From Deltaproteobacteria bacterium (GTDB taxonomy: Bacteria > Desulfobacterota > Syntrophorhabdia > Syntrophorhabdales > Syntrophorhabdaceae): a stretch of DNA of 64,000 nucleotides. Position 1 is the first letter of the stretch, and each line of letters starts with the position of its first letter. A program made the translations under genes and the position numbers. This document shows, piece by piece, positions 36,732 through 46,277 of the stretch. Under the pieces are notes generated by a model that did no database searches, was not told the DNA's origin, and saw only the letters and a list, made by a program, of their open reading frames with translations. The DNA lies in the NCBI GenBank assembly GCA_029553295.1, contig JAKPCK010000130.1:1-64000 (forward strand), in the 5' to 3' direction.

Positions 36732-37034
36732 ATGAAAAGGCCTATGGAGTTTCTGTCATCCATTAATAGTTTTTTTGATAGCTGTCGCAAGACACTCAGC
36801 GAGTTTTTCTACGGCATGACCCTCTTTGAGCTCGAAAAAGAACTGGTAAAGGAAAAGGGTCATCTTAATAACCTGCTGCTGCTTATTGTATTCGGCGACC
36901 TTGTAGGTCTGCCCATCTTTCCTCCCTATTATTCTATGCGTCTTTTACCTTATATCATACCCCATATGGACAAATGGAAAAGGGGTCTACTGAGGGAAAA
37001 GGACTTAACCGACATCGTATCAGGTGACCTTTGA
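36732..37034 (+). CDS. Conserved small protein, paralogue of the CstA-cluster small protein
   Basis: This 100-residue protein has a hydrophobic middle (HLNNLLLLIVFGDLVGLPIF) and a distinctive C-terminal block PPYYSMRLLPY...WKRGLLREKDLTD. The same block appears in the 90-residue protein at 44277-44549 next to the ArsA-like ATPases and cstA. There is no signal peptide; the hydrophobic part could be one membrane hairpin or an interface for binding. It is followed 15 bases later by another small protein. The role is unknown, but the paralogy is clear by eye. Confidence 0.75.
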   Translation: MKRPMEFLSSINSFFDSCRKTLSEFFYGMTLFELEKELVKEKGHLNNLLLLIVFGDLVGLPIFPPYYSMRLLPYIIPHMDKWKRGLLREKDLTDIVSGDL

Positions 37035-37049: not shown

Positions 37050-37280
37050 ATGGACAAAAGGTGTATATATTATGAGACATGCCCCATTCTCACCGGTAAG
37101 GCAGGTGTAGACGAGGCAACCCTAAACAACTATAAAAAGATATACTGCGAGGCAGGCAGGGATATGTGGGGTCTGTGCAGACGCTTTCAGGTCAGGGAGA
37201 TTGTAGGGAGGTGTCCAGTAGAGGTACTCCCTGATGCACCGGAAGACGCATTAGAGATTATCGAAAAATACGACCTATGA
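37050..37280 (+). CDS. Small cysteine-containing protein of unknown function
   Basis: This 76-residue protein has Cys at 5, 11, 33, 43 and 54, including YYETCPILTG and GLCRRFQVREIVGRCP. A metal- or cluster-binding role is possible. A GGAGAGG site precedes the ATG. It is in an operon with the 100-residue protein just upstream. I recognise no family. Confidence 0.65.
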   Translation: MDKRCIYYETCPILTGKAGVDEATLNNYKKIYCEAGRDMWGLCRRFQVREIVGRCPVEVLPDAPEDALEIIEKYDL

Positions 37281-42240: not shown

Positions 42241-43221
42241 CTAAACAAAAAGATGATTTACGAGTCTATTCAGCATCTTAGCCCCTTTTACCTCTGTCTC
42301 AAAAAGAGGGATAATCGCCCTTACCCTGTCGCCGAATATCCTCCATATCTCCTCCATGTGCTCCTCCTGCATGGCTACCCTGTTGCGGACAAACTCAGGG
42401 GCATCCTCTGCCACCTGGTCTTTCTGTATTATACCATTTACCACAACACCACCTACGGGTATCCCGAAGTCATAGAACCAGTTTATAAACCTTGTAATAA
42501 CTGCTATGGGCAGGCTCTCCGGGAGTGTGGCGAAGAAAAACGCAGTAAGATTATCATCTGTCAGCAGGCTCTGGGCCTTTGCCATCCTGTCTTTAAAGCT
42601 CAGTAGATAATCCATGAGGGGGTCTGCCTCCTTCTTTTTTGAGTAAGAAAGCATCTCTCTTAAGGACTTGGCCTCCTCCCTGCTCTTTAACATCTTTTCC
42701 ACCCAGAGGGAATAGACCTTGGACATACCCAGGAGCCTCCTTGCATTGGCTGTAGGTGCTGTATCAAACACATAGAAGTCGTATTCGTCTTTGAACATAA
42801 GGTCTGTCATATTTTCAAACATGGCAGACTCCTCAAAGGCAGGGTTCATGGTCGCAGATTCTACAAAATCATCTGCCTTTGTGGTGAGGTCGGCAAATTT
42901 CAGGAACCAGTTTATCTTCTCCCTTATCTCCTGTTTTGACCTCTCTATAGTATCCTTTGTGTCTATCTCAAAAGCATAACATAGTTTTTCTTCACATACA
43001 ACTGCAGGTTTCCCGAATACATCCTGTTCAAAGAGATTGGAGAGGCTATGGACAGGGTTCGTAGACGCAAGAAGGGTTTTTTTGCCCTGCTTTGCAGCCC
43101 AAAGGGCAGCTGCACCTGCCATGACAGTCTTTCCTACGCCCCCTTTTCCGCCAAAGAAGATATATTTCAACCTTGGATGGTCCTTCATGAACTGGGTCAT
43201 ACTTATGGTAATCTGGCTCAT
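42241..43221 (-). CDS. ArsA/Get3-like ATPase with Asn at switch-I position
   Basis: This 326-residue deviant Walker A ATPase has FGGKGGVGKT at 23-32, including the signature Lys26. The switch-I segment reads ASTNPVHSLSNLF with Asn55, where Get3/ArsA have STDPAHxLSD; the corresponding Asp (Asp57 of yeast Get3) is the catalytic residue, and Asn there gives the well-known inactive mutant. Switch II is DTAPTANARRLL. The conserved NPAFEES (near 115) is also present. No arsenic genes are near, so arsenite export is unlikely. It is paired with a second ArsA-like gene and a small protein. Confidence 0.85.
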   Translation of the reverse strand: MSQITISMTQFMKDHPRLKYIFFGGKGGVGKTVMAGAAALWAAKQGKKTLLASTNPVHSLSNLFEQDVFGKPAVVCEEKLCYAFEIDTKDTIERSKQEIREKINWFLKFADLTTKADDFVESATMNPAFEESAMFENMTDLMFKDEYDFYVFDTAPTANARRLLGMSKVYSLWVEKMLKSREEAKSLREMLSYSKKKEADPLMDYLLSFKDRMAKAQSLLTDDNLTAFFFATLPESLPIAVITRFINWFYDFGIPVGGVVVNGIIQKDQVAEDAPEFVRNRVAMQEEHMEEIWRIFGDRVRAIIPLFETEVKGAKMLNRLVNHLFV

Positions 43222-43253
43222 CTTAAGACTCCTTTGATCTGTCTGTAATCAGA

Positions 43254-44234
43254 CTATGTAAACATCTTTTGGGCTAATCTCTCTATCATCTGAAGCCCTG
43301 TAACATCCCTCTCCATCTCAGGGACATAGGCAAGGATCTGGTCTTTAAAGGTCTTTTCTATTACCTCAAGATAGTGTTCCTGCATGGAAAGGCGGTGTCT
43401 CAAATATTCAGGTATCTGCTGGTTCTTCAGGTCAGTAGACAGGACCCTGTTTACAATGTATCCGCTTAAGGGGACATCGAATTTTGCAAAGAGTTCTGCT
43501 GCCTTAACTGTATCATTTATAACCATCTCTTCGGCAGTGACAACAAAAAAGAATGCTGTCTTTTGTTTGTCCGTCAATATACCGGATGATTTATTTATCC
43601 TGTCCTTTATGTATAGGAGCTCATTTAGTATGGCATCCTCATCCACGTCTTTTTCACGCCGGATGACTGCTGCCACCTGGTCATACTCCCTCATCTGCTG
43701 CCTCAAGTTTGTTATCTTGTCTATCCACTCATCATAGACAGATGCCATGCTGAGATAATAGAGTGCGTGACCCAGGGGCACAAGGTCATAGATATAGTAA
43801 TCATAACCACCCTTTACAACTATATCTACCACCTCGTCAAAGATAGCGCTCTCCTCCATGGCTGGCTCTGCTGCCGCTGCCTGGATATAGCTCTCTATCT
43901 CATCAGGTATCTTGTCCATACCATACATATCGAGAATCTTCTGTCTTATCTCTTGCTGGTATTCCTTTACCCTGCGGTCTGCATCTATCTCCTGGGCATA
44001 GAGATTGGGCATTATCTCTGTTGGTCCCTTGCCAAATATATCCTTTTTGAATATATCACTCAAGGATGCCTGCGGGTCTACAGAAAACACGAGCACCTTC
44101 TTTCCCTGTTTCGCCAGATAATAGGCTGTTGCAGCAGAAAAGGTTGTCTTTCCAAGCCCCCCTTTTCCACCGAACATGATGTAGCGTCTTTCTGGATACT
44201 GTTCAAAGATCTTTGTAAGTGAAATAGGAACCAC
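43254..44234 (-). CDS. ArsA/Get3-like ATPase (second copy, catalytic Asp present)
   Basis: This 326-residue protein is homologous throughout to its downstream neighbour. Walker A reads FGGKGGLGKT at 21-30 with signature Lys24; the switch-I reads SVDPQASLSD with Asp53 kept. Switch II differs (YDLVPLGHALYY), and EPAMEESAIF matches the partner. The start is GTG 44234, which leaves little room for the AAGGGGG site; an alternative start is unclear. The pair could form a heterodimer of one active and one inactive subunit. Role unknown; Get3-like handling of membrane segments is one option. Confidence 0.85.
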   Translation of the reverse strand: MVPISLTKIFEQYPERRYIMFGGKGGLGKTTFSAATAYYLAKQGKKVLVFSVDPQASLSDIFKKDIFGKGPTEIMPNLYAQEIDADRRVKEYQQEIRQKILDMYGMDKIPDEIESYIQAAAAEPAMEESAIFDEVVDIVVKGGYDYYIYDLVPLGHALYYLSMASVYDEWIDKITNLRQQMREYDQVAAVIRREKDVDEDAILNELLYIKDRINKSSGILTDKQKTAFFFVVTAEEMVINDTVKAAELFAKFDVPLSGYIVNRVLSTDLKNQQIPEYLRHRLSMQEHYLEVIEKTFKDQILAYVPEMERDVTGLQMIERLAQKMFT

Positions 44235-44276
44235 CCCCTTATTTTTATTGTATTCTCAAGACCAGATCTCCATTAA

Positions 44277-44549
44277 TCAAGCAAGGGCGTCTGTTAAGTC
44301 TTTCTCCCTGAGCATCCTCCTCTTCCATGTGGATATCTGAGGGACAACATAGGGAAGTAGCCTCAATGAATAATACGGAGGCAGTATTGGGACACCGAGC
44401 ATATCACCCATGGTAATAAGTATGAATAGATGCTCCATGCTTGCCCTTGTCTTCAGGGCAAACCTTGCTGAGTCATGGGCTGCCACGCCATAGACGAACT
44501 CCTTTACGGCGCCGAAAAACCCACCTTTCTTTTTCTCCTCTTTTGACAT
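44277..44549 (-). CDS. Small CstA/ArsA-cluster protein, paralogue of 36732-37034
   Basis: This 90-residue protein has a basic N-terminus, a hydrophobic part (HLFILITMGDMLGVPILP) and the C-terminal block PPYYSLRLLPY...WKRRMLREKDLTD, shared with the 100-residue protein 7 kb to the left. No signal peptide. It lies between cstA (42 bases upstream) and the ArsA-like pair (42 bases downstream). A hydrophobic segment beside two Get3-like ATPases raises the idea of a client or membrane anchor for them. Family unknown to me. Confidence 0.78.
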   Translation of the reverse strand: MSKEEKKKGGFFGAVKEFVYGVAAHDSARFALKTRASMEHLFILITMGDMLGVPILPPYYSLRLLPYVVPQISTWKRRMLREKDLTDALA

Positions 44550-44591
44550 ACCTTTCGCTCCTTTATATTTTTCCTATAATATGCAGGTCAT

Positions 44592-46277
44592 TTATGCCTT
44601 TGCAGGGGCTGCCTGAGCCCTCATAGACCTGTATCTGTTAAACGCCTTTATACCCTCTGCAGCAAGGACAAGGGCTGCAATTACAAGGAATATACCCACA
44701 ATACCCATAAGGGCATTGCCCACCAGTGCCTCTCCCTTTACAGCGCCACTCATAACCTTATTAAGGAGATTATACGATGTATAGAGGAGTGCGGCAATGG
44801 TGGTTATAAACATGAATATCATGGGATAAAATGCATATGCTGCCGGTTTTCCCTCTGACATGAGGTATGCAGTTACAAGCATGAGCGCCAGAGATGCCAT
44901 TAGCTGGTTTGCACCACCGAAGAGGACCCACAGGTACTGCCACCACCCGGTCAACACAAGGAGCATACCAAGGAGGCTTGCTATTATTGTCCCTACATGG
45001 GCATTTCTAAAGATAGGGCTTATATCACTTAATAGTTCTGATGTTGCTATCCTCATAAACCTGATGACAAGCTGCATAATGGTTATGGCCAGGACTATCA
45101 TCATAACACTACCATATGCCCTGCCTGTGGCAGCCGGTAGACCCAGTGCACCTAAAAACTTTGAAACCCCTGCTGCAAATACACCGCCCGGCCCTTTTAC
45201 AATGGCGGCTCCGTATTCTGCAGAGGAGGCATATATTGTCCCTGCAATAATCAATGCAAAAACAGCGAGCATCATCTCCACAAACATAACACCCCCGCCC
45301 ACAGGTCTGGCATCAAGTTCATTTTCAAGCTGCCTTGCAGTACCCGATGACGAAACAAGGCTATGCCAGCCTGAGATTGCGCCACATGCAATGGTAACAA
45401 ACATAATAGGCCAGATAGGCCCTATCTTGATTGTGAATCCAGTATAGGCAGGGAGGGTAAAGTTGGGGTGGAGTATAAATATACCTATTATCCCAAAAAA
45501 GAGCCCAAGGAAGACTATATACGATGCCACATAGTTGATGGGCAGGGCAAATCTCCATATGGGCAGCACTGCGGCAAAATAGCAGAAGAGGAATGCAAGG
45601 ATTGTCCACAGCCACCTGCTGTTTGCCATTGCATCCCCGATTACCACATTAGATGGCACAACCGAGCCTAACCATATACCGAAAAGTGCGATGATGACTG
45701 TTATGACTGTGGTAAGTATGATGTCTTTCCTCCATCGGTATATCATCTGTCCAGCAAGGACACCGCCTATGGTCATAAAAAGCCATGCCATGGGTGCAGC
45801 CTTCAATCCAATGGCTGTACTCACAACAACATTGCCAAATGCACCGGCAATTAGTAGGAGATAGAAATAGAGGAAGGCAAGGAGTATAAACCTTGCCCTC
45901 GGTGATATGAGCTTATGGCTTAGACCACCAAGGGATGCGCCCTCGTGTCTCATGGCAATCATGGCACTTGAGTAGTCCTGGACCCAGCCTATGAAGAATG
46001 TGCCAGCCAGTATCCATATAAGGGCAGGAAGCCAGCCCCACTGGATGGCAATGATGGGTCCTATGACCGGTGCCGCCCCTGCTATGGATTTAAACTGATA
46101 GCCAAAGAGGATATTTTTACTTGTGGGCATAAACTCCACACCGTCCATATACATCTTGGCTGGAGTAACCTTCTTTGGGTCTGCCTTCATTATCTTCGTA
46201 TCCACATATTTTGCATATACACGGTAACCGATAAAAGCGACAATAAAACCAAGGATCAATACCACAACTGAATTCAT
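44592..46277 (-). CDS. cstA: CstA-type pyruvate/peptide transporter
   Basis: This 561-residue membrane protein has about 16 hydrophobic helices and the CstA family sequence: FGYQFKSIAGAAPVIGPIIAIQWGW, GWVQDYSSAMIAMRHEG and GWHSLVSSSGTARQLENE. CstA and relatives (BtsT/CstA) are inner-membrane carriers for pyruvate and proposed for peptides. An AAGGGGG site precedes the ATG. It is the first gene of the leftward run and is fed by the promoter at 46337-46366. Confidence 0.95.
   Translation of the reverse strand: MNSVVVLILGFIVAFIGYRVYAKYVDTKIMKADPKKVTPAKMYMDGVEFMPTSKNILFGYQFKSIAGAAPVIGPIIAIQWGWLPALIWILAGTFFIGWVQDYSSAMIAMRHEGASLGGLSHKLISPRARFILLAFLYFYLLLIAGAFGNVVVSTAIGLKAAPMAWLFMTIGGVLAGQMIYRWRKDIILTTVITVIIALFGIWLGSVVPSNVVIGDAMANSRWLWTILAFLFCYFAAVLPIWRFALPINYVASYIVFLGLFFGIIGIFILHPNFTLPAYTGFTIKIGPIWPIMFVTIACGAISGWHSLVSSSGTARQLENELDARPVGGGVMFVEMMLAVFALIIAGTIYASSAEYGAAIVKGPGGVFAAGVSKFLGALGLPAATGRAYGSVMMIVLAITIMQLVIRFMRIATSELLSDISPIFRNAHVGTIIASLLGMLLVLTGWWQYLWVLFGGANQLMASLALMLVTAYLMSEGKPAAYAFYPMIFMFITTIAALLYTSYNLLNKVMSGAVKGEALVGNALMGIVGIFLVIAALVLAAEGIKAFNRYRSMRAQAAPAKA

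Follow-up and report, generated by a model that had tools for sequence, protein, structure and literature searches.

Why should an operon for a CstA-family transporter encode two adjacent ArsA/Get3-like ATPases, of which one has Asn in place of the catalytic Asp of switch I? The locus that raises this question lies on the minus strand of a 64,000-nucleotide stretch of DNA, the whole of which was analysed and is referred to here as the window. The cluster begins with the gene for the transporter (CstA, 561 aa; 44592–46277), the only CstA copy in this genome. This gene is followed by one for a 90-aa protein (CstX; 44277–44549), by the gene for ATPase 2, the presumed hydrolysing subunit (43254–44225, assuming the likely AUU start discussed below), and by the gene for ATPase 1, the presumed non-hydrolysing subunit (42241–43221). 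The intergenic gaps along the cluster are 42, 42 and 32 bases, and purE comes next after ATPase 1 with a 5-base gap. A preliminary description of the window had reported four genes on a single strand with gaps of 32–42 bases, and its coordinates and gaps were reproduced. The switch-I motifs also read as it had given them: STNPVHSL with Asn55 in ATPase 1 and SVDPQASL with Asp53 in ATPase 2. The corresponding switch-II segments are DTAPTANARRLL in ATPase 1 and DLVPLGHALYY in ATPase 2. The nearest named record for ATPase 1 is a Syntrophorhabdaceae MAG (97%).

Family assignments were made with profile models. Both ATPases exceeded the 135-bit cut-off of the GET3/ArsA/TRC40 superfamily model TIGR00345 (211 bits for ATPase 1 and 237 bits for ATPase 2) and passed PF02374, while the transporter scored 462 bits against a gathering cut-off of 27 for PF02554. 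CstX matched no family in Pfam and is a distant relative of the cory-CC-star proteins, scoring 36 bits against the NF041419 cut-off of 80 and containing no cysteines. The ATPases differ from Get3 proper in that one half of the presumed dimer has Asn rather than the catalytic Asp. They resemble Get3/TRC40 in superfamily, P-loop and signature Lys, and differ from it in this Asn, in the lack of a recognisable targeting partner and in the Zn-binding CXXC motif, which was absent from all ATPase 1, ATPase 2 and single-type proteins. Some Get3 proteins likewise lack CXXC (PMC10248533). BagA/BagB (Rv3679/Rv3680; PDB 6bs3), where a single solved entry contains two distinct Get3-like chains, provides a precedent for unequal partners, although the neighbourhood differs and our ATPases scored only 38–55 bits against the NCBIfam cut-offs of 400 and 521.

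The genes correspond to a system that was described in 2010 by Castillo and Saier, who reported operons that combine cstA and cstX with single-domain arsA and lack ars genes (PMC2963123); equating our CstX with theirs rests on size, place and family. These authors noted adjacent ArsA pairs in two organisms, the pairs named being those of Pyrobaculum and Symbiobacterium, observed that only Asn could replace the SXD-motif Asp, and reported that the ArsA, CstX and CstA trees indicated coevolution. In their proposal CstA is energised by ArsA, CstX possibly serves as a linker, and the ArsAs may act as homodimers (PMC2963123). It was the sole paper on CstX, CstA and ArsA together in the literature collection that was searched. 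As the linkage of these genes, including the ArsA pairs, was published at that time, it is not new. The observation made in the window is real, widespread and partly known. What we did not find described is that the Asn is tied to pairing and that ATPase 2 has a non-canonical start; the 2010 account, with its homodimers, contains neither of these features, nor the complementary switch changes reported below.

We surveyed 60 relatives, 297 genomes of the phylum and 80 named loci, which yielded 154 annotated loci, certain contigs being counted twice. Because an alignment of the diverse CstX proteins contained no stretch conserved enough for scanning named genomes, ATPase 1 was taken as the query. 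ATPase 1 was present in 126 loci and was adjoined by ATPase 2 in 125 of them, the exception ending at a contig end; this query biases the sample toward paired operons, and the single types were obtained from separate profile searches. Once identical proteins had been removed, Asn occupied the switch-I position in 118 of 118 distinct ATPase-1 proteins and Asp in 116 of 116 distinct ATPase-2 proteins. The preliminary description had made its proposal depend, in advance, on conservation of the Asn among ATPase-1 orthologues, and this dependence was borne out by an invariant residue. In operons with CstA, CstX and a single ATPase the residue was Asp in 23 of 23 cases, and switch II was ordinary. 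The complete chromosome CP070694 (G338) contains both arrangements, with one pair carrying Asn and two single systems carrying Asp. Judged by record title, the loci belong to delta-proteobacterial groups, Chloroflexi, Acidobacteria, Gemmatimonadetes, Rokuibacteriota, Actinomycetes and a Spirochaetes MAG, most surveyed records being MAGs of which some may be misbinned.

The two partners differ beyond the catalytic residue. Both subunits keep the signature Lys, the P-loop Lys, the Mg-binding Thr/Ser and the adenine Asn. In ATPase 1 the catalytic Asp is gone, and its switch II has Ala for Gly and Asn for His. ATPase 2 retains the catalytic Asp and the switch-II Gly and His that are changed in ATPase 1; its own substitutions are His to Ala in switch I and Thr-Ala to Leu-Val, Thr to Leu and Arg to Tyr in switch II. 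The switch-II substitutions are fixed within each partner and different between partners. A tree built from 66 proteins resolved ATPase 1 as one clade (support 99) and ATPase 2 as another (99), and grouped the two together (93), so that by sequence they are sister clades; several branches of this tree are long and its deeper placements are unsure. A divergent Chloroflexota pair, with motifs SLNPVHSL/DTAAVANAVRL and STDPQASL/DMPPFGHGVRM (L305 3583–5660, G422), was placed basal to both clades and already follows the Asn/Asp rule.

No natural fusion of ATPase 1 with ATPase 2 was found among the 154 loci. In some loci the two genes are in frame, and the read-through translation of ATPase 2, stop codon and ATPase 1 from such loci (L171 plus 15 others) was used as input for AlphaFold2. 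The model was of modest confidence (pLDDT 71.5, pTM 0.65). Its best PDB matches were ArsA structures, led by the closed form (9nbo, 9nbw), with TM scores of 0.68–0.70 by query and 0.77–0.79 by target over approximately 650 columns; linking two homologues in one chain favours docking. The best single-chain matches after ArsA were archaeal Get3 proteins. The predicted model fits an ArsA-type pseudo-dimer, which is compatibility and not proof.

The reading that we prefer, and hold to be slightly more probable than otherwise, is that ATPase 1 and ATPase 2 form a split ArsA-type heterodimer with one hydrolysing site, serving CstX and CstA. The two proteins would assemble into a single heterodimer equivalent to the ArsA pseudo-dimer distributed over two genes. 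ATPase 2 would supply the hydrolysing site and set the pace. Since ATPase 1 lacks the catalytic Asp and keeps the binding residues, it is expected to bind ATP and to show little or no hydrolysis. In yeast Get3 the D57N protein binds ATP without hydrolysing it, and the ATP-bound state is trapped (PMC12506534); if ATPase 1 behaves likewise, it would be an ATP-bound subunit built into the complex, leaving a single productive site per dimer. CstX, whose gene immediately precedes the pair, probably links the dimer to CstA, whose transport the dimer would energise or gate. The heterodimer of unequal subunits put forward in the preliminary description draws indirect support from constant pairing, fixed switch differences, sister clades and the ArsA-like fused model; the dimer itself we infer, as we do the absence of hydrolysis by ATPase 1, the part played by CstX and the coupling to CstA. 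NosGet3d has Glu at the catalytic position and is nevertheless an active ATPase (PMC10248533), so Asn need not mean a dead site and residual ATPase 1 activity is possible. To judge from its unusual switch II, ATPase 2 could itself be weak.

The same residues can be read in other ways. CstA-family carriers in other bacteria function without ATPases, which would suit a dimer that regulates CstA rather than powering it. As an ATP-level sensor or gate, its silent ATP-bound subunit would keep CstX/CstA in one state until slow hydrolysis by ATPase 2 reset the complex, and loss of the catalytic Asp with retention of the binding residues is what such a switch would need. However, no regulatory partner or domain was identified and the evidence fits energising equally well; we regard this version as unlikely. 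A scheme in which each ATPase forms homodimers with a job of its own, and the Asn protein serves as an ATP-binding scaffold, would agree with the full P-loops of both proteins and with what Castillo and Saier suggested for CstA-linked ArsAs (PMC2963123), but the partners were never found apart and their switch-region substitutions are fixed and partner-specific, making this arrangement quite improbable.

Only marginally better are the prospects of Get3-like targeting, in which the pair would shield hydrophobic CstX or CstA and deliver it to the membrane. Membership of the Get3 superfamily, the archaeal Get3 structural matches and the constant adjacency of CstX speak for it. Against it, CXXC is missing throughout, the cluster contains no insertase gene, and CstX, unlike a tail anchor, continues after its only moderate hydrophobic stretch into a charged C-terminal region. 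The membrane-protein targeting that had been suggested for this locus gained no positive evidence. The companion suggestion that the system is not tied to arsenic held up. The two-domain arsenite pump ArsA shares the fold and the predicted pseudo-dimer geometry of our pair, but the pair is encoded by two genes, lacks arsenic genes and has one half without the catalytic Asp. Each single-domain protein scored only about 101 bits against the cut-off of 650 for TIGR04291, which describes the two fused domains of the arsenical pump; the genes nearby are those for CstA and CstX, and operons of this kind lacked ars genes in the 2010 survey (PMC2963123). Arsenic resistance, favoured by nothing but the family name, was rejected on this score and context as wholly implausible.

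Returning to the split heterodimer, its presumed link is a constant neighbour of the pair. CstX lay directly beside ATPase 2 in 102 of 102 loci with enough sequence, and CstA was within the locus in 74 of 78, four loci having no CstA nearby; the genes do co-occur, as the preliminary description had required of its proposal. In some Desulfobacterota (L163, L117, L119, L121, L124, L186) CstA adjoins the cluster on the opposite strand, and for this reason we consider the CstX–ATPase 2–ATPase 1 core to be tighter than its link to CstA. Across nine loci, no recurring same-strand gene was recognised in the DNA between the CstA and CstX genes. The small protein had been called hydrophobic, and a hydrophobic stretch exists, but it is moderate only (best 19-residue Kyte-Doolittle mean, 1.49). 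A predicted structure of CstX by itself had too little confidence to be used (pLDDT 62.7, pTM 0.31). One CstX copy was counted in 67 loci, two in 47 and three in seven; a tree of the copies was poorly resolved. In relatives the second copy is often inside the cluster or just after it. The window has a second CstX-like paralogue outside the cluster on the plus strand (CstXb, 36732–37034), 47% identical over residues 15–89, and directly behind it is a 76-aa cysteine-containing open reading frame (37050–37280).

The mechanical gene call for ATPase 2 (43254–44234) begins with GTG at 44234. This start is probably wrong, and the alignment points instead to AUU at 44225–44223 on the minus strand: homologues open with MSL, and the codon at the place of this Met is ATT in this genome and in many relatives. 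A Shine-Dalgarno-like sequence, AAGGGGGTGG (44231–44240, minus strand), lies 5 bases ahead of it. Across the ATPase 2 loci the codon at this place was ATT in 60, ATG in 41, TTG in 10, ATA in two and ATC in one, the remainder being unclear; among distinct ATPase 2 relatives an AUH codon was found in 55 of 116 (ATT 52, ATA 2, ATC 1). No in-frame ATG, GTG or TTG occurred after the upstream stop and before the P-loop region in 16 of 123 ATPase 2 loci, compared with 0 of 126 for ATPase 1, 0 of 112 for CstX and 0 of 67 for CstA (Fisher p ~1e-9, not corrected for kinship). Within the AUH-start genes, ATT makes up 21% of internal Ile codons, as against 52 of 55 at the start place. The region ahead of the AUH start is G-rich, with G at −7 invariant (55 of 55), and the AUH-start proteins clustered at 80% identity into six groups. 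Seven changes of the AUH label were needed when it was mapped on the ATPase 2 tree, three of them forced by starred branches, so the AUH start is old and has undergone more than one gain or loss.

The infC gene of this organism (L304; G000:C156, near 108403–108897) also lacks an N-terminal ATG, GTG or TTG and likely starts with ATA behind AGGAGGTGA, so non-canonical starts appear to be used here. In Streptomyces, sigR starts with GTC behind AGGAGGTG, and SigR is kept scarcer than its partner via IF3 (PMC5472188). The infC and sigR cases are alike in the non-canonical start, and in sigR in the scarcity of one partner; they differ in that their products are an initiation factor and a sigma factor rather than a transporter ATPase. 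By sigR-type logic ATPase 2 would be the limiting subunit, and the AUU start may keep this catalytic subunit scarce in this lineage.

Taken at its widest, the locus would represent a widespread asymmetric ArsA-type heterodimer with one permanently non-hydrolysing subunit that powers or gates a CstA-class carrier, with the dose of the catalytic subunit set by a conserved IF3-sensitive AUU in Desulfobacterota and a few others; this full combination is possible but, in our view, less likely than not. The pair offers a natural D57N-type ATPase with which the capabilities of a one-site ArsA/Get3 dimer can be tested, and a concrete test case for the idea, put forward in 2010, that CstA is energised by ArsA homologues. 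If confirmed, the AUU start would add a conserved case to the very few characterised non-canonical starts (infC, sigR), and one that cannot be called by gene callers restricted to ATG, GTG and TTG.

The same genome encodes a third full-length ArsA/Get3-like ATPase (L002 1462–2415, G000:C63), which has Asp in switch I and ordinary switch motifs (SSDPTPSL, DTAPAGHTLR). From our reading of the sequence, it is flanked by an apparent pyrE and an apparent rsmD/coaD pair.
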